From IMG/VR virus record IMGVR_UViG_3300027833_000147, positions 1 to 32,067 of that record: a stretch of 32,067 bases of DNA, one strand, 5' to 3'. This DNA is from a virus. Every line of letters begins with the position of its first letter. Within the stretch, counting starts at the first letter, position 1. Under the pieces are notes generated by a model that saw nothing but the letters and a program-made list of their open reading frames with translations, made no database searches and had not been told where the DNA came from. Of this stretch, positions 1-28,839 are shown one piece after another. Both the position numbers and the translations under genes were made by a program.

Positions 1-150
1 CCTGAAGTGGTATATAGAAGAGATGATGGTTATTTAGCTATTAAATATTATAAATTAAATTCATTAATTATTGAAGCGATTAAAACTCACCAAGTATTTA
101 TTGAAGACATAGGTGAACAAATAAACTGGTTAAGAACACAAATAGATTAA
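1..150 (+). CDS. C-terminal end of a peptidase S74 (intramolecular chaperone) tail protein, partial
   Basis: The gene runs in from the left edge; only its last 49 codons are present, open from base 1 to a TAA at 148-150. The peptide begins PEVV, continues with a DGYLAIKYYKLNSLIIEAIK stretch, and ends in a short amphipathic helix. This is the typical end of S74 domains of endosialidase-type tail fibres and spikes, where an autoproteolytic C-terminal chaperone trimerises the fibre. The next gene starts at the A of this stop codon (TAATG), so the two are translationally coupled. The next gene also ends in an S74 domain, so two tail-fibre-type proteins are encoded in tandem. The family assignment rests on a short stretch only. 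Confidence 0.72.
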   Translation, partial: PEVVYRRDDGYLAIKYYKLNSLIIEAIKTHQVFIEDIGEQINWLRTQID

Positions 151-3100
151 TGGCTAATATTATAATATATCCTACGGGAAGTACATCGAACACCAATCCA
201 CATATAATTTTTAGTGGTTCAGGTAATAGTTATGCTATTGAAATAGATAATTCAGGTGATTTAATATTTAAGTCTTCAACTAATATTTTTAAAGTCTCTG
301 ATAGTAATACTCCATTATCATTACCTGCTGAGGCCAATGTCGTTAATAGTGAACTTTATGTTGGTAGTATGATGGTGGTTGATTCCGGAGGTCATTGGGT
401 AGGTCAACTAGAAGGTTTAAAAGGTCAAAAAGGACTTAAAGGTCTTAGAGGTGGAGATGGTAGAGAAGGGACTAAAGGTAATAAAGGTAAAACGGGAGTA
501 GTTGGACCTACAGGCGATAAAGGTGATTTTGGTATTAAAGGTGGTATAGGTTCTGACGGACTAAAAGGTATTAAAGGTGAGTTATCAGTTAAAGGAGATA
601 AAGGTAACCGAGGAATACAAGGAAATAAAGGTGAAGTTGGACCAAAAGGATTGAAAGGATTAAAACCTTCAGAATCTACCAAAGGTTTAAAAGGACCTAC
701 AGGATTAAAAGGGATTACATCTACCGATAAAGGACAACAAGGACCAACAGGACTTAAAGGAATTAAAGGTATTAAAGGGTTAAAGCCAGACCAAGGAGCA
801 CAGGGTAATATTGGAGGTGATTCGCCTCAAGGACCTACCGGTCTAAAAGGTCCACAATCTTCTGATAAAGGTCAGAAAGGATTTAAAGGTATTAAGGGAG
901 TTAAAGGTCAAAAAGGTATTCTTGGGGTACAAGGACCTCAAGGTGAGAAAGGTATAAGAGCCACAGATGGTGATACGGGACCACAAGGACCAACAGGACC
1001 TAATGCCGATAAAGGACCTATTGGTAACAAAGGTATAAAAGGTCTTACAGGACCACAAGGTCCGCAAGGACCCGATGGTATTATAGGTGTACAAGGACCT
1101 AATGGGGACTTAGGGCCTCAAGGACCGCAATCTACAGACAAAGGTGATAAAGGTATTAAGGGTATCAAAGGTATTAAGGGAGTAAAAGGTCCTAAACAAA
1201 GTAGAGGTGTAATAGGTACACAAGGTGAGAAAGGATTTATTGGGCCACAAGGACCAACAGGACCAGGTGGACCCGCAGCCGTTAAAGGACCCACAGGTCC
1301 TCAAGGACCGGTCGGACCCAAAGGTTTCAATGGTAATAGAGGGTCACAAGGGGATTCACTAAAAGGACCAACAGGTTCTGGTGGAGAGAATGGTCCACAA
1401 GGACCAACAAGTACAGATAAAGGTACCAAAGGTTTAAAAGGTCTTATTGGTATAAAAGGGATTAAAGGATTAATTGGTCCACAATCTTCAACTAGTTCAG
1501 GTCCACAAGGTCCGACAGGGCCACAGGGACCAACAGGACCAGCAAGTGCCGATAAAGGACTAAAGGGTCCAAATGGTAATAAAGGTTTCAGAGGACCTCA
1601 GGGACCTCAGGGACCACAAGGTAATAATGAAAAGGGACTTATAGGTGATGTTGCCGATGGTGGAGATATTGGTCCGGTAAGTTCAGATAAGGGTCTACAA
1701 GGACCGACAGGTGACACGGGACCTAAAGGATTTCAAGGACCACAAGGTACAATTGGTACTTCACCTAAAGGAGCGAGAGGGGTACAAGGACCAATAGGTC
1801 CTAACGCGGAACAAGGTCCAAGTGGTGTACCCACAAATAAAGGTAATAAAGGTTTAAAAGGTATCAAAGGACCTAAGGGTACAGATGGGCCACGAGGTAC
1901 TATTGGATTTAGTATAAATGGACCAACAGGACCAGGAGGGCCAGTAGGTCCAAACAATACTGATAAAGGACTTAAGGGATTACAAGGTGACACGGGACCT
2001 ACCAATACCGATAAAGGAACTCAAGGACCAAAAGGACCAAGAGGTAATCAGGGTGGTGGTGGTCCACAAGGACCAACAGGACCAAAAGGAATTACCGGAG
2101 GTCAAGGACCAACAGGACCAGCAAGTACAGATAAAGGTATTAAAGGTCAAAAGGGTTATAAAGGTACTAAAGGACCTAACGGACCAACAGGACCAACAGG
2201 ACCAAAAGGTACTCAAAATACAACCACAGGTGATAAAGGACCAACAAGTACGGATAAAGGTCAAAAAGGACTAAAAGGTCCAAAAGGATTACAAATTGGT
2301 AGAGGTGGACAAGGGCCACAAGGAGCAAAGGCTTCAGGAGGAGCGACAGGTCCAACAGGACCACAAGGTCCAGCAAGTACTGATAGAGGACCGATAGGAC
2401 CAAAAGGACCACAAGGTAACGATGGACCAAGAGGGCCACAAGGTTCAGCGTCGTCACAAGGTAATGTAGGACCAACAGGACCAGGTGGACCCGCAGGAAA
2501 TACTGCAGGACCAAAAGGACCAATAGGTCCAAGACAATCACAAGGTGATAGAGGTCCACAAGGAGCGAAGGCTTCAGGAGGAGCGACAGGACCAACAGGA
2601 CCACAAGGTCCAGCAAGTACTGATAGGGGTGTTCAAGGTGAAATCGGTTCACAAGCCAGTAGGGGACCACAAGGTTCAGCATCAGGACAAGGGGCGACAG
2701 GACCAACAGGTTCAGGTGGACCAACAGGACCCGCGAGTTCTGATAAAGGTAATAAAGGAATAAAAGGACCATTTATAGGTCAATCTAGTGATAAAGGTTT
2801 TAAAGGTATTAAAGGTTCACGACCTTCAGGGGGACCACAAGGACCAACAGGTCCAACTAGTACAGAGAGAGGACCTACAGGACAAAAAGGGCCAAGAGGA
2901 CCACAAGGTTCAAGAGGACTACAAGGAGCAAAGGCTTCAGGAGGAGCGACAGGTCCAACAGGTGCTCAAGGACCGGCAAGTTCCGATAAAGGTAATAAAG
3001 GTTATAAGGGAATTGATGGACCACAAGGACCAACTGGACCAAAAGGACCGACAAATTCAACAGGTGCACAAGGTGGAACGGGACCAACAGGGGAAGCGGG

Positions 3101-4115
3101 TAACGACCCAGGACCAAGAGGTAATCAAGGACCAAGAGGACCACAAGGAGGAGGAGGAGCCCAAGGACCAAAGGCTTCAGGAGGGGCGACAGGTCCCATA
3201 GGAAAAACTGGTACGAATAGTACAGAAAAAGGACCGAGAGGAGATATTGGTATACAGGGACCAAAAGGTTATAAAGGTCTAATTGGAGGTCAAGGACCAC
3301 AAGGACCAACAGGTTATAAAGGTTACAAAGGACTAAGAGGCCCTAAAGGACCAAAAGGTTACAAAGGACCGAGAGGTGGACAAGGACCGCTAGGGATTAG
3401 AGGACCACAAGGGTTTGGTGGTATTGATGGGGAAAAAGGGCCTATAGGACCTCAGGGAACGGATAAAGGTTTAAAAGGGCCAAAAGGACCAAAAGGTGCC
3501 GTAGGTAATAAAGGTTTAAAAGGACCAAAAGGTTACCGAGGACCACAAGGACCAACTGGACCAACAGGTTCGGCGGGACAACAAGGTGGAGGAGGAGCCC
3601 AAGGACCGGCAGGACCAACAGGTAATAAAGGTATTAGGGGACCACAAGGACCAAAAGGAATAAAAGGGCCACAAGGACCAAAAGGACTAAAAGGTGCTGT
3701 AGGTAATAAAGGTACTAAAGGGCCAGGTGGTCTTCAAGGGGCAACAGGTCCAACAGGGGCACAAGGACCTATCGGTAGTACTTCAGATAAGAGATTGAAG
3801 AATGACATTAGAAGTATTGAAACACCTTTAAGTAAAGTTTTAAATCTAAGAGGTGTTGAATATATTTGGAGAAAAGAAGGTATTAACGGTGAGATTATTG
3901 AAGAAGGTGGTAGTAAAGATATTGGTGTTATTGCACAAGAAGTTAAAGAAATATTACCTGAATTAATTGGTGGTTCAGAAAAACACGGTTACAAAGTCAG
4001 TTATGAGGAAATGATATCAATACTGTTCGAAGCAATTAAGGAACAAGAATCGATATTAGATGTAAAGGAAAGTGAACTAACTGAATTAGAGGAAAAGTTT
4101 AAACGTAATCAGTAA
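150..4115 (+). CDS. Collagen-like tail fibre with C-terminal S74 intramolecular chaperone
   Basis: This is a 1321-residue protein with three parts. Residues 1 to about 88 are non-repetitive and probably attach to the virion. Residues about 89-1205 are Gly-X-Y repeats, rich in GPQGPTGP and GxKGxKG triplets, that should form a long collagen-like triple helix. About twenty breaks read (S/N/A)(T/S/A)DKG or TERG/TDRG. From Ser1212 the sequence SDKRLKNDI starts a classic S74 domain, with IGVIAQEV and LPELI blocks, and ends in a Glu/Lys coiled coil. In this family the fibre is trimerised by the chaperone, which then cuts itself off at the Ser of the SD pair. The start overlaps the upstream stop codon (TAATG). 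The 3' end overlaps a convergent minus-strand gene by 17 bases. The call as a structural fibre is secure; the receptor is unknown. Confidence 0.93.
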   Translation: MANIIIYPTGSTSNTNPHIIFSGSGNSYAIEIDNSGDLIFKSSTNIFKVSDSNTPLSLPAEANVVNSELYVGSMMVVDSGGHWVGQLEGLKGQKGLKGLRGGDGREGTKGNKGKTGVVGPTGDKGDFGIKGGIGSDGLKGIKGELSVKGDKGNRGIQGNKGEVGPKGLKGLKPSESTKGLKGPTGLKGITSTDKGQQGPTGLKGIKGIKGLKPDQGAQGNIGGDSPQGPTGLKGPQSSDKGQKGFKGIKGVKGQKGILGVQGPQGEKGIRATDGDTGPQGPTGPNADKGPIGNKGIKGLTGPQGPQGPDGIIGVQGPNGDLGPQGPQSTDKGDKGIKGIKGIKGVKGPKQSRGVIGTQGEKGFIGPQGPTGPGGPAAVKGPTGPQGPVGPKGFNGNRGSQGDSLKGPTGSGGENGPQGPTSTDKGTKGLKGLIGIKGIKGLIGPQSSTSSGPQGPTGPQGPTGPASADKGLKGPNGNKGFRGPQGPQGPQGNNEKGLIGDVADGGDIGPVSSDKGLQGPTGDTGPKGFQGPQGTIGTSPKGARGVQGPIGPNAEQGPSGVPTNKGNKGLKGIKGPKGTDGPRGTIGFSINGPTGPGGPVGPNNTDKGLKGLQGDTGPTNTDKGTQGPKGPRGNQGGGGPQGPTGPKGITGGQGPTGPASTDKGIKGQKGYKGTKGPNGPTGPTGPKGTQNTTTGDKGPTSTDKGQKGLKGPKGLQIGRGGQGPQGAKASGGATGPTGPQGPASTDRGPIGPKGPQGNDGPRGPQGSASSQGNVGPTGPGGPAGNTAGPKGPIGPRQSQGDRGPQGAKASGGATGPTGPQGPASTDRGVQGEIGSQASRGPQGSASGQGATGPTGSGGPTGPASSDKGNKGIKGPFIGQSSDKGFKGIKGSRPSGGPQGPTGPTSTERGPTGQKGPRGPQGSRGLQGAKASGGATGPTGAQGPASSDKGNKGYKGIDGPQGPTGPKGPTNSTGAQGGTGPTGEAGNDPGPRGNQGPRGPQGGGGAQGPKASGGATGPIGKTGTNSTEKGPRGDIGIQGPKGYKGLIGGQGPQGPTGYKGYKGLRGPKGPKGYKGPRGGQGPLGIRGPQGFGGIDGEKGPIGPQGTDKGLKGPKGPKGAVGNKGLKGPKGYRGPQGPTGPTGSAGQQGGGGAQGPAGPTGNKGIRGPQGPKGIKGPQGPKGLKGAVGNKGTKGPGGLQGATGPTGAQGPIGSTSDKRLKNDIRSIETPLSKVLNLRGVEYIWRKEGINGEIIEEGGSKDIGVIAQEVKEILPELIGGSEKHGYKVSYEEMISILFEAIKEQESILDVKESELTELEEKFKRNQ
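2316..3216 (+). repeat. Dispersed near-identical DNA repeats inside the collagen-like fibre gene
   Basis: A block encoding AKASGGATGPTGPQGPASTD recurs at about 2316-2387 and 2556-2627, 240 bases apart, and the two copies are nearly identical. Shorter copies start near 2919 and 3165 and keep the KASGGATGP core. Identity is at the DNA level, including synonymous positions, so recent duplication or gene conversion is likely. All copies keep the reading frame and the Gly-X-Y register. Confidence 0.8.
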
Positions 4116-5469: not shown

Positions 5470-7089
5470 ATGAATCTTAGTCAAGTTTTATTAGAAAGTA
5501 GGAAGGATGATTTTTTAAGAATGTTTAGAGACAAGTTTTCTGACGAACAACTTAAAAAAGTTTTTACCTTATCTAGACAATTAGCCCCTAATCAAAAATA
5601 CCTCACATTTTTAGGTAATGTTGTGCCTACAGAAAATTTCGATGAGAGTTTAAGTAAGGCCGAAAAAGTGGTTGAGAAATTTATTAAGTACCAACAAGCG
5701 TTAGAGACGAGAGATATCAACCAATTTAAAAGTTTAGAGGAAATAATAACTGCGATTAATAATCATGAGAATAAAGTTAGACGTACAGTTAAATCTGTTG
5801 ATGGTGCGAATATTGTTTATGAGGATGACCGTTTCACTGTTGTGACTCCACAAACACATAAGGCAAGTTGTTATTATGGTGCAGGTACTAAATGGTGTAC
5901 CGCTTCTATGAATGGTTCTTCACATTTCGATAACTACAATGTAGAGGGTAAACTTTTCTATATCTTAGATAAAAAAGCAAAAAGTAATGACAAATATTAT
6001 AAAGTGGCTTTATTACAAAAATATGATGGAGATAAAACATTCTATGACGCGCCTGATAAATCTTTTAAAGATGGGTGGATATTAGGTACTCCAGAATATG
6101 ATGAAATTCAAAGCGCGATTGATAAATACATTAATACTAACTACCAAAGAGAGATTAATATCTTTAAAGATAAAGAGGCGGCTAAAGTCGAAAGAGAAAG
6201 ATTAAGAAAAGTGGCTGAAAGACGTAGAGTTGCTCAGTTAAGGATTGCTGCGGACCAAAGAAAAGAAGAGGACTCATGGAATTTAGAAAACGAACCTGAC
6301 CAAGAAGGTGTGTATGCTAATGCGGTATTTGAAGTTATGGTTGATAACTACGGTGTATCTGTTGATGAAGAAGAAGGTGAAAGTATATATGATTTAGTCC
6401 CGTCACAGTATAGTCATTATGATTTACCAACGTTTGAATGGGTAGGTGATGACGATACTGGAATAACATTTGCTGTTGGTACGTGGGATGAAGTATGGCA
6501 AGCGGCTAAAGAATATATGGAAGGACTATGGGATGACCAAGGAGCTGACGGATGGAGTAACTCGTTTGTTGAAAGTCATATTGATGAGCAGGAAGTTAGA
6601 GAATATTTTTATGATATGTTTTCGGATGATGTAAATAATAATTATGAATCATATTTTGATACAGACGAATTACCACTATCGGACGAACAAGAATCTCAAG
6701 TAGCCAAATTAAAAGAAGAGGCTGAAGAGTTAGATGAGATAACTAAAAATGTAGATGACGTATATAATGAAGATGAGGTAGAATTAGCTGAAGATAGATG
6801 GAATGAAATAGATGATGAAATAACAGATATTGAATCTGACCCTGAAGGTGAACCAACAGAGGAACAAATTGAAGATATGGTAAATAGTAGAGTTGATGAT
6901 GTCATGTATGATATGATGGCTAGTATGTCCGATTATGGTTTAGAAATAAGTGACTATGTCGATAAAGATGCATTATTTGAGGCGGCAATTGATAGCGATG
7001 GTGTGGGTAATTCTCTTAGTAGTTACGATGGGGACGATAATGAAGTAATGATAGGTGATACTTGGTATCACGTTTTTAGAACAGAATAA
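5470..7089 (+). CDS. Large acidic phage protein with YGxGTKWCT motif and capsid-targeting-like leader
   Basis: The protein has 539 residues. The N-terminus MNLSQVLLE/SRKDDF looks like a T4-type capsid-targeting leader with an LLE/S prohead-protease site after Glu9. Around residues 133-144 lies SCYYGAGTKWCTA, followed by GKLFYILDKK and YYKVALLQKY blocks. The same blocks occur in the next gene, so the two are paralogues. A Lys/Arg-rich helix follows (about residues 230-265), then a very acidic, Asp/Glu/Tyr-rich C-terminal half. I know YGxGTKWC blocks from uncharacterised phage proteins but cannot assign an enzyme activity. It overlaps the next gene by one base (TAATG). A packaged internal head protein is the favoured reading, by inference. 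Confidence 0.85.
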   Translation: MNLSQVLLESRKDDFLRMFRDKFSDEQLKKVFTLSRQLAPNQKYLTFLGNVVPTENFDESLSKAEKVVEKFIKYQQALETRDINQFKSLEEIITAINNHENKVRRTVKSVDGANIVYEDDRFTVVTPQTHKASCYYGAGTKWCTASMNGSSHFDNYNVEGKLFYILDKKAKSNDKYYKVALLQKYDGDKTFYDAPDKSFKDGWILGTPEYDEIQSAIDKYINTNYQREINIFKDKEAAKVERERLRKVAERRRVAQLRIAADQRKEEDSWNLENEPDQEGVYANAVFEVMVDNYGVSVDEEEGESIYDLVPSQYSHYDLPTFEWVGDDDTGITFAVGTWDEVWQAAKEYMEGLWDDQGADGWSNSFVESHIDEQEVREYFYDMFSDDVNNNYESYFDTDELPLSDEQESQVAKLKEEAEELDEITKNVDDVYNEDEVELAEDRWNEIDDEITDIESDPEGEPTEEQIEDMVNSRVDDVMYDMMASMSDYGLEISDYVDKDALFEAAIDSDGVGNSLSSYDGDDNEVMIGDTWYHVFRTE

Positions 7090-8531
7090 TGAAGTTATTA
7101 AATTTAATAGAAGGTAGAAGAGAAGATATACTTAATCGTTTTGATGAGAACCCTGAGTTACGCAAAACAATAGAGGAGTTCTTAGACCATGAATTTAATA
7201 AGAAAACAAATTATAAATATGTAAATTGGGTACTTAAAAGAAATTTTGATGATTTTGGTAATACAATTATTTCTTTAGATACTGTAATTAATTGGATTGA
7301 AAAATTTGATAGAGTAAGGAAAAACTTACAATATAAAGATATTAATCAATATAAAAACATTCAGGACCTTATCGATACGTTAGAGGTTTACGGTGACACA
7401 AAAAGTGAAGAAAAAACTAAAGTAGAGGCGGATACCTCAAAGATATATGAGGACTCTGAAGTTTTAATAGTTAAACCACTTAGTCAAAAATCGTCATGTT
7501 ATTATGGTCAGGGTACCAAATGGTGTACGTCAGCCACATCTGGTGGTAACGCATTTAAAGGTTATAATGATAGAGGTCCTTTGTATTATTTTATATTTAA
7601 AAATTTAAATAAAGATAATGATTATTATAAAATCGCTATTCATTATAATGTAGGTGAGGATAGGTACTCACTTTTTGATGCTAAAGATAATTTTAATTCT
7701 AATCTATTAGGTTTTTTAAAAACAAATTCAGCTTTCAATTCGATTGAAAAAGATATTGAAGAAAATCATAAAGTTGATAAATCTAAAACTTTAGAGATTA
7801 TGTTAATTAAACTTATTAGAGAAAATAAGTTTAATTTTAGTAAAATTAGAAATTATGTCCTATACGATAAGTTAGTTAATATACTTGGGGATGATAATAC
7901 CGCACCACTTGTAGTTGCTGAATATGGTGAAAAACATATTATGATTAAAGTGGGTGATAACGATGATGAAATAGTATTTAGGGAGTTACTAAACCCCAGG
8001 ACAAGAAAGAGTACTTCAAAATATGTTTATGATACAAGACCTCTATATGAAATGGTAGAATATCTTGAGTCTAAATCGGACCCATATGATTTAGCACATT
8101 TATTAAGTCAAAATACTATACATACTAATTATAAAGTTATTAGAGATTTATTTAATTTCTTTATTGAAGAATTGCATGAAGAGCTAAGTGTGGGTAATCA
8201 AGAAGGTTTTAAGTTTTGGCAACCTATAAACTCACACTCAAATTATCGATTTGAAAGTAGAAATCCTGACAATGCTTACATTAAATTTTTAAATTATATA
8301 ATTGAGCAAACAAATGAAGGGGAACCAGCCAGTAAGAGAGATTTTTTAATTAATGTCTTAGAAAAAGACCCTGAAGAGGTAGTATTTTCAGGATATCTCT
8401 CAACAATGTTCAGTTCAATGAAAGATGCTGGACTCGTTAGTCTTTACAGAGCCAACACTTCACCTTATTTTAGGTACAAGCTTGGCCCCAACCACAATGT
8501 TTGGGAAAAAGGAAGACTAAAGAGAATATGA
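7089..8531 (+). CDS. Paralogue of the upstream YGxGTKWCT protein with capsid-targeting-like leader
   Basis: The protein has 480 residues and starts at the A of the upstream stop (TAATG). Its leader MKLLNLIE/GRREDIL carries an LIE/G site after Glu8. SSCYYGQGTKWCTSATSG at about 135-150, then PLYYFIFKN and DYYKIAIHYN, match the upstream protein block for block, preceded in both by a (V/I)YED stretch. The two N-terminal 200 residues are clearly homologous; the C-terminal halves are not. The region around residues 325-460 (YDLAHLLSQN, then an LIxVLEKDPEEVVFSGYLSTMF segment and a YFRYKLG end) looks like a small winged-helix-type module, but I cannot confirm this. Function unknown; probably delivered or expressed together with the 5470 product. 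Confidence 0.85.
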   Translation: MKLLNLIEGRREDILNRFDENPELRKTIEEFLDHEFNKKTNYKYVNWVLKRNFDDFGNTIISLDTVINWIEKFDRVRKNLQYKDINQYKNIQDLIDTLEVYGDTKSEEKTKVEADTSKIYEDSEVLIVKPLSQKSSCYYGQGTKWCTSATSGGNAFKGYNDRGPLYYFIFKNLNKDNDYYKIAIHYNVGEDRYSLFDAKDNFNSNLLGFLKTNSAFNSIEKDIEENHKVDKSKTLEIMLIKLIRENKFNFSKIRNYVLYDKLVNILGDDNTAPLVVAEYGEKHIMIKVGDNDDEIVFRELLNPRTRKSTSKYVYDTRPLYEMVEYLESKSDPYDLAHLLSQNTIHTNYKVIRDLFNFFIEELHEELSVGNQEGFKFWQPINSHSNYRFESRNPDNAYIKFLNYIIEQTNEGEPASKRDFLINVLEKDPEEVVFSGYLSTMFSSMKDAGLVSLYRANTSPYFRYKLGPNHNVWEKGRLKRI

Positions 8532-12164: not shown

Positions 12165-12734
12165 ATGTCAAAGTTATTTATAAATGAGTCAGAAGAATCT
12201 CATATACGTAGAATGTATTTAATTGAGAATGAAGTCGATAAAAAAGATGGTACTAAAATGAAAGCCAGTCAAAACTTTTGGGACCATATTAAATTTGAAG
12301 AAGGTGACCCAAAAAAACCTATTGGTAACATAAAAGAACCAGTATTAAAGGCGTATAAAGACACTAGTGGAGTTTTAACTATCGGTTATGGACACACGGG
12401 TAGTGATGTAAAACGTGGTTTAGTGATAGATAAAAAAACTGCATTAGAGTTACTTTATAAAGATGCTTCGGAGGCTGCCGACTGTGTTAGAAGATTTTTA
12501 GGGGAATGGAAAGATAAAGGATTAAAAACGTATATGTTAACTCAAGGACAATTTGATTCGTTAATATCATTAGTTTTTAATACTGGATGTGATTCAGTTA
12601 GAATGTCAAGATTCATACAATATGTTAAATCTGGTCAAAATAAAAAAGCGGCAGAAAGTATTTTATCATATAAGTCCTCGAATGACGGTCTTAAAAATAG
12701 AAGAACAAAAGAAAAAAATATGTTTATATCATGA
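12165..12734 (+). CDS. GH24 lysozyme with capsid-targeting-like leader
   Basis: The product has 189 residues and hydrolyses peptidoglycan glycan strands. FEEG (Glu46) and the block LKAYKDTSGVLTIGYGHTG (Asp66, Thr72 in T4-lysozyme spacing D-x5-T) are the GH24 catalytic region; the Glu-to-Asp spacing is longer than in T4 lysozyme because of a Pro/Lys-rich insertion. The later block LTQGQFDSLISLVFNTG is also typical. Before the domain lie about 30 extra residues starting MSKLFINE/SEESHIRRMYLIENE, with an INE/S prohead-protease-like site after Glu8. No secretion signal is present. The usual GH24 reading is endolysin; the leader instead suggests packaging in the virion for use at infection. It overlaps the next gene by four bases (ATGA). 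Confidence 0.9.
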   Translation: MSKLFINESEESHIRRMYLIENEVDKKDGTKMKASQNFWDHIKFEEGDPKKPIGNIKEPVLKAYKDTSGVLTIGYGHTGSDVKRGLVIDKKTALELLYKDASEAADCVRRFLGEWKDKGLKTYMLTQGQFDSLISLVFNTGCDSVRMSRFIQYVKSGQNKKAAESILSYKSSNDGLKNRRTKEKNMFIS

Positions 12735-14929
12735 AAAAATTATTAAAAGAATCAGGATTAAGAAATATCAACGATTTATCTAAGAGATATGAGAAAGCTA
12801 AAATATATTTTCATCAAGATTTAGACGGTGTTACTACCGCTTTAGCTATGAAAAATTATTTAGAGAATAATGGAATCAAAGTTGTTGATTCTGAAATAAT
12901 ACAATATGGTGATAAGGAGTTCGCGGTAAAGAAACAAGACGCTAAAGGAGATACGATGCCGGTCTTAGTTGACTTTGCTCACGGAAAACCAATGTTTGTT
13001 GTACACACTGACCACCATGATAGTCAAACAGGTGTGGAAGGTGACACATCGACATCATTCAGGTCATCAAGGTCTAATGTTGAGACACTATCACAAATAA
13101 TGTCACCAAGTGATATCTTTACTGCCGATGATATTAGATTAATATCTACAGTTGATTCTGCGGATTTCGCTAAGTATGGGTTAGAACCACAAGACATAAT
13201 GAATTTTGTATTTAAATTACAAAAGGATAAGTCATTACAGAAAAATAAAATGGCTTTAGGTTTAGCGACTAACAAACTTATGTTAGCATACAAAAATAAA
13301 CCAGGGTTTATGGAGGATTTAGTAATGACATCTCAACCATCACTATTAAACATATTTCAAAACATTAATAGATTAGCCGCTGAAAAGGGGTACGCGTTAC
13401 CTGAAGAAATGGCGTTGAATCAAAAAGATTATGTACAGAAACAAAAAGATAGTGATAAGGTTTATGTTGATGACGGAATTATAGTACAATACGGTGGAGG
13501 TTCAATGTTCAAACCAGGTTCTTATGACCGTTACACTCCATTCAAAAATAATCCTGAGGCTGACTTTATAGTAATCGCTTGGCCAATGGGGTTAGTACAA
13601 GCTTCATGTAACCCATTCAAAGGTGAGAGAGAATTGAAAGGTGTTAACTTAGGTGATATAGCTCAAGAAGTATTAAGTAAATGGGAGAGTCAATTAAGAG
13701 AAAAGATAATTCCTTTATCTACAATCAAGTGGATATCAGAGGGTAATAAACAATTTGGTGATGAGTCAGTTGGTTTTACTAATGCGGATTTAGAAGCCTT
13801 TTATGGTGATAAGGTTCGTTCGATGAGTGGTGGTGATGACTACATGGAAAAATTAAAAGATATAATGGACAAACCATCAACTAAATTAACTGAAGATGAG
13901 TGGGCGATATTAGATAAATTAGGTGTTCCAGCGTGGGAAATGATTCAAGCTAACTCAGGTGGACACAAATGTATTACAAATATATCTGCTTTAAATTACT
14001 TTGGAAGAGGTAAGAGAAAACCTGAAGGTAAATATAAATACAATAAAGATAAAGGTGATTCACCATATGTTAAGTTTGTTAAAATGATTCAAAAAGAATT
14101 TGTAAGAAAACTTAAAGAAAAAATTAATGAATCCAAAGGTGTAAATGAAGGAATGATAAAAGAAATAGATGTTACTATTGGTGATTACGAGTCAGATAAT
14201 ATTGATGTACATAGAAGAGCTAGAAAAGACACGGTTAATAAAGAATTGTTAAATGATATCCAATCTGCAGCAGAAAAAGCTAAAGTAAAAGTTCAGATTA
14301 ATTGGGCACATACTGGACATAGTAGTAAAACTAAGTCAGGTAATGTTAGTAGACATAGTACTCATGATGCGGTTGATATATCTAGATTACAAGATTTAAA
14401 AGACCCAAAACAGAAAAGTTTAAGAGGCTCGGGTAATGCATCTAACTCTACTAACGGTAGTGAAAATTTTAGAATTGCAGGAAATAGACTTAAAGACGCT
14501 TTAGTTGAATTAGGTTATAATTGGAACGGTGAACGTGGTCATAAAAAGGCGGTTTTATGGCAAACTGATATTGGAGGTAATCATTATAATCATCTACATG
14601 TTTCAAACAAAGACGGAGGTAAAACAAATAGTAGTGGTCCGGTAGGTAAAGACGAAGGTAAAATTAAAAAAAGTAATCTAAAAATTGATGACATAATAAG
14701 TAATGGTGATAATTCAGAACTTATTGCTGTTGGTTCAAAAGGTGAAGGAGTAAAGCAAATACAAAACATTTTGAAAAAAAATGGTTATGATTTAGGTGAA
14801 CCTGGTGTTGATGGTAAGTTTGGACCTATTACTAAGAAAGCGATTAAGAAGTTCCAAAAAGATAGGGGATTAAATTTAATTGATGGTATTGTTGGAATTG
14901 AAACTTCCACAGAACTTAAAAAGGGTTAA
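12731..14929 (+). CDS. DHH phosphoesterase / M15 peptidase / peptidoglycan-binding fusion protein
   Basis: The 732-residue protein has a leader MKKLLKE/SGL (LKE/S site after Glu7). Residues about 20-415 form a DHH-family phosphoesterase: HQDLDG (His28, Asp30, Asp32), TDHHD (Asp94-His95-His96), and a DHHA1-like GGH at 410-412. A Lys/Glu linker contains INE/SKGVNE/G near 465-472. Residues about 475-635 form an M15-like metallopeptidase: SRHSTHDAVD (His542, Asp549) and HYNHLHVS (His621, His623) as zinc ligands. Residues about 663-732 are a PG_binding_1 repeat (KGEGVKQIQNIL, DGKFGPITKKAIKKFQ). DHH enzymes cleave oligoribonucleotides, ssDNA or cyclic dinucleotides; M15 enzymes cut peptidoglycan peptides. 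I know of no standard family combining these. It is coupled to the lysozyme gene by ATGA. Confidence 0.88.
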   Translation: MKKLLKESGLRNINDLSKRYEKAKIYFHQDLDGVTTALAMKNYLENNGIKVVDSEIIQYGDKEFAVKKQDAKGDTMPVLVDFAHGKPMFVVHTDHHDSQTGVEGDTSTSFRSSRSNVETLSQIMSPSDIFTADDIRLISTVDSADFAKYGLEPQDIMNFVFKLQKDKSLQKNKMALGLATNKLMLAYKNKPGFMEDLVMTSQPSLLNIFQNINRLAAEKGYALPEEMALNQKDYVQKQKDSDKVYVDDGIIVQYGGGSMFKPGSYDRYTPFKNNPEADFIVIAWPMGLVQASCNPFKGERELKGVNLGDIAQEVLSKWESQLREKIIPLSTIKWISEGNKQFGDESVGFTNADLEAFYGDKVRSMSGGDDYMEKLKDIMDKPSTKLTEDEWAILDKLGVPAWEMIQANSGGHKCITNISALNYFGRGKRKPEGKYKYNKDKGDSPYVKFVKMIQKEFVRKLKEKINESKGVNEGMIKEIDVTIGDYESDNIDVHRRARKDTVNKELLNDIQSAAEKAKVKVQINWAHTGHSSKTKSGNVSRHSTHDAVDISRLQDLKDPKQKSLRGSGNASNSTNGSENFRIAGNRLKDALVELGYNWNGERGHKKAVLWQTDIGGNHYNHLHVSNKDGGKTNSSGPVGKDEGKIKKSNLKIDDIISNGDNSELIAVGSKGEGVKQIQNILKKNGYDLGEPGVDGKFGPITKKAIKKFQKDRGLNLIDGIVGIETSTELKKG

Positions 14930-14934
14930 AAGTA

Positions 14935-15291
14935 TTAAAATAAAGAGAAGGAGACATTGTCTCCTTTTTTTATGCCTTGTTCTTCACAAAAACCACCAGA
15001 GACTTCTAAAACTGTATTACCAAAACCTTGATATGACTCACAATTTTTATTATCATTACACGGTTGACAGTTGGAATGGATTTTAGTTATTTCTGTTCCG
15101 TTAATAAAAATGATATCTAATGGTATTATACAGTTATACATCCAAAAACTTTGTTCAGTGGTGTTTGGCATAAAAAATAACATACCATTAAAAGATTCAT
15201 CAAACTTTTTACTCATCATTCCTTTAGAAATGGAATCTGGAGTGGCAGAAACTTTGACTTTTAAAATATTATCATTTATTATTACTTTCAT
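14935..15291 (-). CDS. DUF192 family protein
   Basis: The product has 118 residues and starts at the ATG complement at 15289-15291; upstream in-frame ATGs lie inside the divergent Nudix gene and are not plausible. KGMMSKKFDESFNGMLFFMP, then SFWMYNCIIPLDIIFING and the C-terminal VLEVSGGFCEEQGIKKGDNVSF match DUF192 (often secreted small proteins in bacteria and archaea; role unknown). No signal peptide is visible here. Two extra Cys (NCQPCNDNKNC) sit in an insertion and could bind metal. It converges with the fusion gene at 12731-14929; the terminator hairpin of that gene lies inside this gene's 3' end. Confidence 0.87.
   Translation of the reverse strand: MKVIINDNILKVKVSATPDSISKGMMSKKFDESFNGMLFFMPNTTEQSFWMYNCIIPLDIIFINGTEITKIHSNCQPCNDNKNCESYQGFGNTVLEVSGGFCEEQGIKKGDNVSFSLF
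14948..14971 (+). terminator. Rho-independent terminator of the lysis module
   Basis: A perfect 8-bp stem AAGGAGAC/GTCTCCTT with a 3-base loop is followed by a run of seven T at 14965-14971, 18 bases after the stop at 14929. It lies within the coding end of the convergent DUF192 gene. Confidence 0.88.
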
Positions 15292-24707: not shown

Positions 24708-26321
24708 ATGAAAAAACAAAACAAATTTAAAGAATTACTTGTTGATAAACCTGATATTGTAATAATAATAACAGACCAAGAGAGAGCCACTCAATACTTT
24801 CCTGAAGGGTGGGAACGAGAAAATCTACCAACACTAACTAAATTAAAAGATAATGGTTTCACATTTGATAAAGCCTTCTGTAATAGTTGTATGTGTACAC
24901 CGAGTAGGGCTACTTTATTTACTGGTACGTACCCATCACAACATCAATGTACTGAAACCTTAACAACAGGTGGTATATACTCACCTGGTGAAATACAATT
25001 AAATAATAAAAGTAATAACATTGGTAAGATGTTAGATAGTATCGGTTACGATGTACAATACAGAGGTAAATGGCATTTAAGTAAAGGTGCGGATGGTGGT
25101 GACCCATTAGCTAAAGAAATATCACTTTATGGGTTTAAAGGTTGGGTTGGACCTGATGCGGGTGAAGACGCGAAACCTGAAAACTTTGGTGGGGGTTATC
25201 CAAATGCTGATGCGAGGTATGTGAAAGAAGGTATAGAATATTTAGAACAGGTAAGAATCAGTAGAGAAAAGGGTGAACCAAGAAAACCATATTGTTTAGT
25301 ATTAAGTTTAGTAAATCCTCATGATGTGTTAGGTTATCCAAAGTCAGTACAATTTGGTTATACTCCTGATGAATATACTGGTAGAACTATTACCGACTTA
25401 CCACCTACAGTTACGGAACAGTTACTTAAAAATGGTAAACCTATGGCTCAACTACAAACAAACATTGCTGCCGATGGTTTATTAGGTGTCTTACGAAATG
25501 ATGATATGAAATTAAATTACTTAAATTTTTACGCATACTTACTAACTAAGATTGATGGTGAAATTGGTAAATTTATTGATGTACTTTATGATGATACCAA
25601 AGGTAGTAGACTTGCTGATGACGCGGTAGTTATACGATTGGCAGACCACGGAGAAATGGGGATGTCACATGGTGGTATGAGACAAAAGGCTTTTGTTGCT
25701 TATGAAGAAGCGTTAAGAATACCTATGGTGATATCAAACCCTATTGTGTTTAACAAAAAAGAATCGTCAGATGAATTAGCGACACTTATTGATATATTCC
25801 CAACGATATCTGAGATTGTTGGTGTACCTAAAGATAGTAACTCAAGAGGTGAGAGTTTAATACCAATAATTGAGGAAGGTAAATCAGTTCAAGATTCTAT
25901 ATTATTTACTTTTGATGATACTAAGTCGGGTTCGAATAATTTACCATCTTCTGTTAAAGCAACTAATAGATTAAGGGCAATCCGTACACATGATTGGAAG
26001 TACACATATTATTTCGATTCATTAGGTAGATATCAAAAAGAATATGAGTTATACGACTTAGTTAACGATATTGAGGAATTACATAATTTAGCTTATAAAC
26101 CTGAGTATAGAGAACAAAGGGAATACTTACATCAGCAGTTGATGGAATTAGAAGAAAGAAAATTAAGAGTTAATGAGGTATTTGTTAATAAAAATAACCA
26201 ATATGAATATAAAACTTGGGTTGAGACAAATCCTAATTTTGAGACTTACGCTTACAATGATATAGAGGGTTATGAGAAGGAGAATTTTGATATAAACGAA
26301 GAAAAAAATACGGAAAAATAG
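24708..26321 (+). CDS. Type I sulfatase (formylglycine-dependent), cytoplasmic
   Basis: The product has 537 residues and should hydrolyse sulfate esters (or phosphonate monoesters). CTPSR at 63-67 is the sulfatase signature whose Cys63 is converted to formylglycine. DIVIIITDQ (Asp23, Gln24) binds the metal, RGKWHL (119-124) holds the family Lys and His, and ADHGEMGMSHGG (312-323) supplies more metal and sulfate ligands. The C-terminal part (ELYDLVNDIEELHNLA) is the usual sulfatase end. There is no signal peptide, although most polysaccharide sulfatases are secreted. Maturation needs a formylglycine-forming enzyme, which I do not see here and would come from the host. It is rare in phages and lies just upstream of a GH16-like lipoprotein. 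Confidence 0.93.
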   Translation: MKKQNKFKELLVDKPDIVIIITDQERATQYFPEGWERENLPTLTKLKDNGFTFDKAFCNSCMCTPSRATLFTGTYPSQHQCTETLTTGGIYSPGEIQLNNKSNNIGKMLDSIGYDVQYRGKWHLSKGADGGDPLAKEISLYGFKGWVGPDAGEDAKPENFGGGYPNADARYVKEGIEYLEQVRISREKGEPRKPYCLVLSLVNPHDVLGYPKSVQFGYTPDEYTGRTITDLPPTVTEQLLKNGKPMAQLQTNIAADGLLGVLRNDDMKLNYLNFYAYLLTKIDGEIGKFIDVLYDDTKGSRLADDAVVIRLADHGEMGMSHGGMRQKAFVAYEEALRIPMVISNPIVFNKKESSDELATLIDIFPTISEIVGVPKDSNSRGESLIPIIEEGKSVQDSILFTFDDTKSGSNNLPSSVKATNRLRAIRTHDWKYTYYFDSLGRYQKEYELYDLVNDIEELHNLAYKPEYREQREYLHQQLMELEERKLRVNEVFVNKNNQYEYKTWVETNPNFETYAYNDIEGYEKENFDINEEKNTEK

Positions 26322-27051: not shown

Positions 27052-28839
27052 ATGAAAAAACTATTATTAATTATGATGTCGGGTCTACTCTTAATGAGTT
27101 GTACTCAACAAAACGATTTAACATTTAATGAAATGGTAAATCAAACAGAGATTACCGCTAAGGGTATTGATACAACTGCATTGTTTTATGAATCGAGTGC
27201 GACTAAAGAATTAACTGGTGTGAAATCAGTATTCGCAGGTATTAACAACACCACTATTGAGGTGTTATGTAATTCTAAGGGTGAAACTGAATCAAAGGTT
27301 ATTAATTCTCCATTTATGGAAGACGAGGTAATACACCTACCAGTTAAACTCACATTAGAAGAAGCTGAACAAATATTATTAGATGCTGGTTATGGTACAG
27401 GTGTCGAAGGAGTTGCTGATTGGTCTGAGGTCGTATTAAGAAGACCGTTAGAACCAGGTTTCAACGTAGCACAATATATTTTTACGACAAGTAAAGGATT
27501 TGTAAGTGTAAATGCAACAACAGGTTCAATTTCACCTGTAAGTTTAGAGGGGTGTCCTTGCCCATTTACTGACCCATGTATTTGTCCTGAAGAAAAATTA
27601 TCTGATGGAGATGACCCTTACATTATGGTTTGGAACATTGATAAGGGTGCAGGTGTTAGTTTAAAAGTCACAGGTGGACAAGAATGGGAAGGACAAGCGA
27701 TAAGTCCCAAGGTAGGTGAATCAGTAAATGAAGGGTACAATTACGCTTATGTTATATTTCAAACTTTAAATGTTGATATATACACAGGAGCTAGTGGTGG
27801 TGGTCAAAAGTTAGGGAGTACCACTATTGAAATGGTGACGAAAGATGGGAACACCTATCCTTTAGATAGTAAAGGGTTAATTAATTTAAAATACAACCCA
27901 AGTAAATCAACCTATCCAGGTCCTACGGGTTGGCAAAACAGAAATTGGTTTGATATTACCTATGTTGGTGTTGCACCACCGTCTGTCCTTACCAATGAAG
28001 GATGGAACAATGGTTTAGGTAATAGTAGTTCGGTTGCGGTCACAGATGAATCATTCTTTACCACTGATTTCGGTGATGAGAATGGGAGATGGACGGCTCA
28101 AGACGGAGCGATTTACCAAAGTACCGCAACGATTGATAATAATGTTGCGAGTAGAGCATATGTGGTAAAATTGGTTGAAGGTCAGAGTTCATGGTCATAT
28201 GAACAAGGGATTGGAGTTGCTAAAGATGGTCTATGGCAAATAGACATTAAATGTGGTTCTAACGGAGAGAAACCATACTGTGAAACATTCTATATTGCTG
28301 AGAGAAAGAACTTAGCTCCAGGTGTAAGTAACTATTTAGATGGTCACGGAGGTGGTCAAGGAGGTGGAGGTAATGGTAGAGAAATTGACATTATGGAAAC
28401 TCAGTGGAATGGATGTGATGGATGTACCACAGATATGGGACCACAAGTAAGTTTAGGTAATGCTGATGGAGGAACTTATTGGAATCAAACTGAAGCTCAA
28501 AATATTAGAGTTAATAATGCTCAATGGTCAGATATTGGTGGTATCAACTCAGGATTCGCAACTTATGGTGTTTTAATTAGGGGTAATAACTTATGGTTAT
28601 ATGCATACAAACCTGATGGTACATTTTGGTATTCAACAGATACAATACCAAACACTAACACCACTTACGTGCAGGAAGGTAATTTTGTACCTTACATCGG
28701 TACTTGGAGTCAACCAGCAACTGCGGGTGACTTTAAAACAGGATACAATAACTTTATTTATTTAGATGCTGACGATGATAAGATTAAAGGGTTAAATCCA
28801 AAGGATAATCCTGAAGCGTTTGGTGCAGTATTAAAATAA
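27052..28839 (+). CDS. Secreted lipoprotein with GH16-like (ConA-type) glycoside hydrolase domain
   Basis: The product has 595 residues. MKKLLLIMMSGLLLMSCTQQN is a lipoprotein signal with lipobox LMSC, so Cys17 is acylated. Residues about 25-180 form an N-terminal domain ending in a Cys-rich CPCPFTDPCICPE hinge; then a beta-sandwich (about 190-300). From about 310 to 595 lies a ConA-like hydrolase: REIDIMETQW holds the GH16 catalytic set Glu444, Asp446, Glu449 (ExDxxE), preceded by a Gly-rich loop. GH16 enzymes cut beta-glucans, agar or carrageenan; GH7 has a similar EMDIWEA motif and is the alternative. An outer-membrane lipoprotein fits a Bacteroidetes host. A phage-encoded lipoprotein hydrolase is unusual. 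A strong terminator follows. Confidence 0.82.
   Translation: MKKLLLIMMSGLLLMSCTQQNDLTFNEMVNQTEITAKGIDTTALFYESSATKELTGVKSVFAGINNTTIEVLCNSKGETESKVINSPFMEDEVIHLPVKLTLEEAEQILLDAGYGTGVEGVADWSEVVLRRPLEPGFNVAQYIFTTSKGFVSVNATTGSISPVSLEGCPCPFTDPCICPEEKLSDGDDPYIMVWNIDKGAGVSLKVTGGQEWEGQAISPKVGESVNEGYNYAYVIFQTLNVDIYTGASGGGQKLGSTTIEMVTKDGNTYPLDSKGLINLKYNPSKSTYPGPTGWQNRNWFDITYVGVAPPSVLTNEGWNNGLGNSSSVAVTDESFFTTDFGDENGRWTAQDGAIYQSTATIDNNVASRAYVVKLVEGQSSWSYEQGIGVAKDGLWQIDIKCGSNGEKPYCETFYIAERKNLAPGVSNYLDGHGGGQGGGGNGREIDIMETQWNGCDGCTTDMGPQVSLGNADGGTYWNQTEAQNIRVNNAQWSDIGGINSGFATYGVLIRGNNLWLYAYKPDGTFWYSTDTIPNTNTTYVQEGNFVPYIGTWSQPATAGDFKTGYNNFIYLDADDDKIKGLNPKDNPEAFGAVLK

Follow-up and report, generated by a model that had tools for sequence, protein, structure and literature searches.

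The virus record IMGVR_UViG_3300027833_000147 encodes a protein in which a DHH-DHHA1 phosphoesterase is joined to a peptidoglycan hydrolase. The best-supported reading of this fusion, with a probability of roughly 0.55, is a cargo polyprotein that would be packaged in the phage head and split there by the prohead protease; packaging, cleavage, ejection and substrates are what we infer from the sequence. The two activities belong to different cell compartments. The phages carrying it would be T4-like jumbo phages that encode bS21 and probably infect Bacteroidota. An MKKLLKE leader would bring the protein into the prohead, where a gp21-like S77 protease would trim the leader after Glu7 and cut the linker after Glu467, Glu473 and/or Glu478. 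Two free enzymes, the DHH-DHHA1 phosphoesterase and the peptidoglycan hydrolase, would result in the head, and both would be let out at infection. The peptidase would then help to breach or remodel the wall, and in the cytoplasm a small phosphodiester (a cyclic or a short oligonucleotide) would be the substrate of the DHH enzyme. The second enzyme would be swapped among phages by recombination in the linker, which would also bear the cut site.

Locus of the fusion gene

The window, i.e., the whole stretch of 32,067 nucleotides that was analysed, is a 32-kb fragment from the genome of a large ocean phage. Positions 12731-14929 of the plus strand form a single uninterrupted ORF of 732 aa, whose start codon is overlapped by the stop of a lysozyme gene (ATGA). 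A slash marks putative cut positions throughout.

12165..12734, plus strand: phage lysozyme gene, with the leader MSKLFINE/S
12731..14929, plus strand: fusion protein of DHH-DHHA1 phosphoesterase, LAS/M15-like peptidase and peptidoglycan-binding domain (ORF, profiles, models)

On the reverse strand, stops run throughout frame 1 across the locus; an antisense ORF of 89 aa was seen at 13024-13293. A search of known defence families with PADLOC gave no match. A near-identical copy of the gene (L027:5001-7210) is split by a frameshift at about residue 265, which may be an assembly error or mark a pseudogene.

A phosphoesterase of the DHH superfamily

The DHH-DHHA1 half spans residues 1-473. Pfam PF01368 matched the window protein with E 0.0014-0.0022 (18.7-19.4 bits, below the cut-off of 28.1) and was matched by 38/38 family members, at best with 6.6e-5, all of them below or near cut-off level. 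The RecJ profile TIGR00644 matched with E 2.2e-4. The following motifs are invariant:

12812..12826, plus strand: DHH motif I, H28-Q-D30-L-D32
12971..12973, plus strand: DHH motif II, Asp81
13010..13018, plus strand: DHH motif III, D94-H95-H96
13154..13156, plus strand: DHH motif IV, Asp142
13958..13966, plus strand: DHHA1 GGH motif, G410-G411-H412

Residues H28, D30, D32, D81, D94-H95-H96, D142 and G410-G411-H412 are unchanged across 23 diverse sequences, including those of 634-735 kb phages. The sequence-only reading had assigned this half from its DHH and GGH motifs; the metal ligands are retained, and no loss of a ligand was seen among these sequences.

An AlphaFold model of the DHH half, for which a set of 38 sequences was used, reached a pLDDT of 74 and a pTM of 0.69, with pLDDT below 50 around residues 92-124. 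Nearly all of the top Foldseek matches in the PDB were DHH enzymes, among them GdpP, DhhP, pAp phosphatase and archaeal RecJ (E 7.5e-5 to 1e-3, probability 0.93-1.0), with TM-scores of only about 0.2-0.4 and rmsd of 9-14. At the level of the model these matches support membership of the DHH superfamily without pointing to a subfamily or substrate, because the TM-scores are low. A sequence-profile search of the PDB with this half returned chance matches only. Enzymes of the RecJ, NrnA, pAp phosphatase and GdpP types have the metal ligands, the GGH motif and, as the model suggests, the fold class in common with the window protein, whereas the structural matches are only about 10-14% identical to it, and the window family has a large middle region of its own (residues ~150-400). 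Judging from the model, a RecJ/nanoRNase-type activity (hydrolysis of pAp/nanoRNA or ssDNA) would fit the DHH fold as well as cyclic-nucleotide hydrolysis. In jumbo phages, DHH-superfamily phosphodiesterases have been proposed to break down immune signals made of cyclic nucleotides (Iyer et al. 2021, PMC7824862); the passage on them lists a small number of phages and describes neither fusion nor head packaging.

The DHH half is present in at least 579 IMG/VR viral contigs, and its matches in phage collections were solely uncultured 634-735-kb phages. A cellular DHH gene was considered as its origin and set aside, since no relative of this half turned up when 84,980 prokaryote genomes were scanned by pattern, a method that would overlook distant relatives.

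A LAS-type peptidase with a peptidoglycan-binding domain

Residues 479-636 adopt a LAS fold by model match, the structures matched including hedgehog (E 2.6e-3, TMt 0.51-0.56) and the RB49, LysECD7 and T5 L-Ala-D-Glu peptidases. In the alignment of the M15-like cassette, the ligand set H542-x6-D549 ... H621-x-H623 is invariant. A Pfam search of the M15-like part gave no match to the M15 profile.

14165..14638, plus strand: LAS/M15-like zinc peptidase domain, putative ligands H542, D549 and H623 (model, alignment)
14741..14908, plus strand: PG_binding_1 domain, residues 671-726 (Pfam E 1e-16)

Profiles, ligands and fold matches together bear out the domain assignment made earlier from the sequence, i.e., DHH, M15-like zinc peptidase and peptidoglycan-binding domain.

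PG_binding_1 combined with M15, M23 or GH19 is the classic architecture of endolysins, and endolysins were also matched in the PHROG search. A serious, if rather unlikely, rival explanation is that a DHH enzyme has been joined to an endolysin of late lysis. The protein would be made late and remain whole, its peptidase with the PG-binding domain being the endolysin that a holin releases, and the linker would simply be flexible; the DHH half would be a cytoplasmic recycler of short RNAs or nucleotides, and the fusion would be an accident of adjacent genes. The overlap of the gene with the phage lysozyme gene favours this explanation. Modular swapping of lysin domains is common among phages.

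Candidate cleavage sites

T4 gp21 cleaves after L/I-X-E (PMC9026906). Motifs of this type are found at the N-terminus of the fusion and in its linker:

12731..12751, plus strand: N-terminal leader MKKLLKE/S, putatively capsid-targeting and cut after Glu7; E7 and a hydrophobic P3 in 38/38
14123..14134, plus strand: putative prohead-protease site 1, INE467/S (sequence motif)
14141..14152, plus strand: putative site 2, VNE473/G; homology to the relative G002 ends exactly here
14156..14167, plus strand: putative site 3, IKE478/I; Glu invariant at the start of the M15 cassette in five contexts

In the leader, the hydrophobic P3 and the P1 Glu are conserved in 38/38 sequences, and P2 varies (K/N/S/T/V). 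The linker motifs proposed in the sequence-only reading, INE467/S and VNE473/G, were confirmed, and a third, IKE478/I, was added to them. Site 2 carries Val at P3, whereas T4 prefers Leu or Ile. Residues 461-478 hold four [ILV]xE motifs, as many as the whole of residues 13-458. As a counter-example, ISE337, within the folded DHH domain, is also conserved in 38/38.

Among distinct fused junctions, 35/36 have an [ILV]xE within 26 residues; the lone exception is L002, from a 642-kb phage, which has no site near the DHH end. Since the motif is weak, occurring in 33% of random 27-aa stretches from these proteomes, 12 junction types were subjected to a shuffling test with 20,000 shuffles. They contained 22 [ILV]xE sites against 8.2 expected (0/20,000 shuffles as high), and all 12/12 held the motif against 6.4 on shuffling (p 0.0002), the types being partly dependent in that several have the DHH-side residues INESKG in common. 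The best independent cases are those with sites on the cassette side: VVKE/D in M15b, IVTE/N in M15c, SVTE/S in LAS2, NITE/N in SET and VITE/Q in M23b. The Glu of the M15 cassette is kept as MIKE, VVKE, IVTE, AINE or SVTE, and L106, a lysin that lacks DHH, again has its M15 module behind AINE. Sites also occur between cassettes: the linker KEKINESKGLNE is repeated between two cassettes in L017 (INESKGLNE/Q), and INE/T (L055) and LFE/Q or LFE/E (L151, L053) are found at the same kind of position. That a hydrophobic-x-Glu is kept in leader and junction far above chance speaks against the endolysin explanation.

The two halves could also be parted with no protease, if a free peptidase began by internal translation at Met475 (GMIKE). 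An ATG does occur at the cassette start in 3/3 M15 variants (GMIKE, DMMRVGD, NMVRVGD), whereas the junctions of the M23, GH19 and SET cassettes lack a Met there. An internal start was for this reason rejected as a general way to part the halves, and for the window protein it is considered highly improbable.

Head protease and capsid protein of related phages

Among the ORFs of the 32-kb window, neither a protease gene nor a capsid gene was seen. Both are found in the relatives G001 and G002, which encode a gp21-like S77 prohead protease (PF03420, E ~1e-24) and a Gp23 capsid protein (E ~1e-63), each above the cut-off. The propeptide of the capsid protein, which starts MGALLE/SGLVGN, bears the sites LLE/S, IKE/D, xxE/N, LYE/N and LINE/A, alike in 4/4 phages. 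By reading of the sequences, the putative LINE/A site corresponds in position to the maturation cut of T4. The leader of the DHH protein, MKKLLKESGLRN, is similar to the capsid-protein start, MGALLESGLVGN.

In G001, G002 and G008, a ribosomal S21 gene is found close to the protease and capsid genes, on the strand opposite to them, with a sub-threshold match in G010. The same position of bS21, on the opposite strand beside the prohead protease and capsid genes, has been described in phages assigned to Bacteroidetes hosts (PMC9723584). Because of this match between the relatives and the Bacteroidetes-assigned phages, the window phage probably infects a member of the Bacteroidota. A DHH protein has 0 occurrences in the text of PMC9723584. 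All the close relatives found are uncultured, and no virion proteomics was found for them.

Cassette exchange at the linker

The same fusion was sought in other phages and proved to be recurrent, with several types of C-terminal domain. After residue 465 the family carries no cassette, M15-PGB, M23-PGB, PGB-GH19, M23-PGB-PGB-GH19 (a fusion of 1079 aa), a second M23, a second LAS, or a SET domain (PF00856, E 1e-10). Further tails are a PGB protein of unclear catalytic type and a tail of 304 aa, for which a Pfam search gave no significant match. The SET domain stands behind the DHH half, after NITE/N, in L180:5393-6067, L182 and L185, and could possibly be a packaged protein methyltransferase.

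In 114/212 rows, near-copies included, or about half of the family, the DHH protein stands alone. A tree of 91 DHH domains requires at least 21 changes of cassette state and no fewer than 13 switches between fused and alone, nine of which are forced by branches with good support; one label (L060, really of the second M23 type) was wrong on this tree and could shift the counts of state changes by one. Both the occupation of the slot by a SET methyltransferase-like domain, which has no evident role in lysis, and the half of the family with DHH alone argue against the endolysin explanation. The short DHH tails of L195, L267 and L268 (...ARKQGQGLRFPKSAVK...) correspond to the beginning of a lysozyme gene that lies separately downstream (L263:5573-6556, G010), and a fusion or fission may possibly be under way there.

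The exchange is seen against the close relative G002 (198 kb), whose DHH half is 99% identical in protein sequence to that of the window.

14150..14929, plus strand: exchangeable C-terminal cassette; flanks 88-94% identical in G002, which has PGB-GH19 here

The alignment of the window with G002 runs unbroken for 14.2 kb and ends at 14149, the last base of Glu473 (VNE/G); it restarts at 14935, six bases past the stop codon, with 94% identity. Between these breakpoints, M15-PGB in the window is replaced by PGB-GH19 in G002. Against the M23-bearing relatives, homology ends at 14148 and restarts at 14676-14684, inside or just before the common PGB domain. From the alignments, the exact position of the breakpoint is suggestive of a cut site, not proof of one, and a breakpoint at Glu473 is partly expected because the common linker itself serves as recombination homology.

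Leaders on separate genes

In unfused genomes, the GH19 and M23 cassettes occur as independent genes, each with a VTE/S or ITE/S leader. G010 (257 kb) has the DHH gene alone, and just upstream of it a separate PGB-GH19 gene with the leader MKIVITE/SQFKKLINE/N. In G001 (270 kb), where DHH likewise stands alone, a relative of the M23b cassette begins MKIKLIDILLEEVTE/SQ, with the leader end ..EEVTE/S. The fused site thus takes the position of the separate gene's leader, as a protease-split fusion predicts. A relic of fusion would initially look identical to a protease-split site.

This is the ground for another alternative, in which the leader brings the whole fusion into the head and the protein is ejected uncut, as one polyvalent protein, the linker motifs being relics of leaders. 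Such relics are expected after fusion, as the unfused cassettes bear leaders of this kind, and delivery of polyvalent fusions with the DNA has already been proposed (PMC5512222). The motif survives, however, in junctions that have diverged and in the second linkers of L017 and L055, places where decay of a relic would be expected, and packaging without cleavage is considered quite improbable.

The idea of a prohead protease acting on the linker, first raised from the sequence of the window, has been strengthened by the gp21-like protease of the relatives, the capsid site of the LINE/A type, the motif in 35/36 junctions and the cassettes with leaders of their own.

A few common leader types ending in hydrophobic-x-Glu were noticed on unrelated proteins of G001, G002, G008 and G010 (loci L108-L131, L273-L300). 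Recurring ones are LTESDL..IVKRVINE, ITESQ, KIIITESQY, MNLQESIRRILREE and KKIIKLTESDLTRIVKRVINE. In a set of 813 proteins, [ILV]xE[STGA] is over-represented close to the N-terminus: two start positions there have 17 and 18 proteins, respectively, compared with an average of 3.3 for each position farther in. These starts may possibly represent a genome-wide set of capsid-targeting leaders. Among the lysozyme, M23, GH19 and PGB genes of G001, G002 and G010 whose starts were read, most bear leaders, so leaders are perhaps not a mark of entry-only proteins. The genomes searched for lysozyme, M23 and GH19 genes yielded few of them; since those whose starts were read bear leaders, leader-bearing lysins may also serve lysis, which is in favour of the endolysin explanation.

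Resemblance to packaged and polyvalent proteins

The proposed packaged, protease-split polyprotein resembles two known systems. The internal proteins of T4 and Alt, cut by gp21 (PMC9026906, PMC9958956), have a short N-terminal hydrophobic-x-Glu leader, an S77 protease and a T4-like head, all of which have counterparts in the window protein or in the relatives, and a T4 leader is able to bring foreign fusions into the head (PMC9026906, PMC9958956). The T4 leaders each precede one protein, whereas in the window family putative sites also lie between two enzymes. Against the polyprotein reading, the cuts mapped in SPN3US take off propeptides and do not separate two enzymes (PMC10052503).

Polyvalent proteins (Iyer et al. 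2017, PMC5512222) unite several unrelated activities in one polypeptide, including domains that target peptidoglycan and nucleotides, as here. The window protein resembles them in that a single polypeptide encoded by a mobile element combines domains of disparate biochemistry. They were proposed to enter with the DNA and be processed, and were likened to viral polyproteins (PMC5512222). Their splitting was proposed to occur mainly by their own metallopeptidase domains, whereas the putative sites in the window protein match a separate head-maturation protease. Profile searches found no embedded processing metallopeptidase domain in the window protein, the LAS domain being of the peptidoglycan type. 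Neither a DHH nor a SET domain occurs in the text of PMC5512222.

If the polyprotein reading is true, the head protease would, beyond capsid maturation, separate enzymes needed in different places, and a single leader could load several effectors. It would explain fused enzymes with incompatible work sites in large phages. A sequence rule, hydrophobic-x-Glu in leaders and linkers, would let packaged proteins be predicted across hundreds of uncultured phages, and the widespread viral DHH enzyme would become a candidate early counter-defence factor. The fullest version of this proposal, in which a large clade of uncultured jumbo phages splits packaged polyproteins by its capsid-maturation protease, the DHH enzyme neutralising a host nucleotide signal at entry next to an exchangeable hydrolase or SET cargo, is speculative and thought unlikely.

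Neighboring genes

Two related proteins of the window, at 5470-7089 and 7089-8531 (phrog_17056/28193), are of unknown function and have a GTKWCT-type motif. They start with MNLSQVLLE/S and MKLLNLIE/G, and similar genes with similar leaders sit near the DHH gene in G001, G002, G008 and G010. From these starts, the pair may be additional head cargo. At 150-4115 the window encodes a collagen-like repeat protein of 1321 aa, whose C-terminal sequence resembles, by its look, an intramolecular chaperone domain. By eye, a sulfatase-like protein (24708-26321) and a secreted glycan-hydrolase-like lipoprotein (27052-28839) were also recognized, and both are possibly polysaccharide degradation genes carried by the phage.
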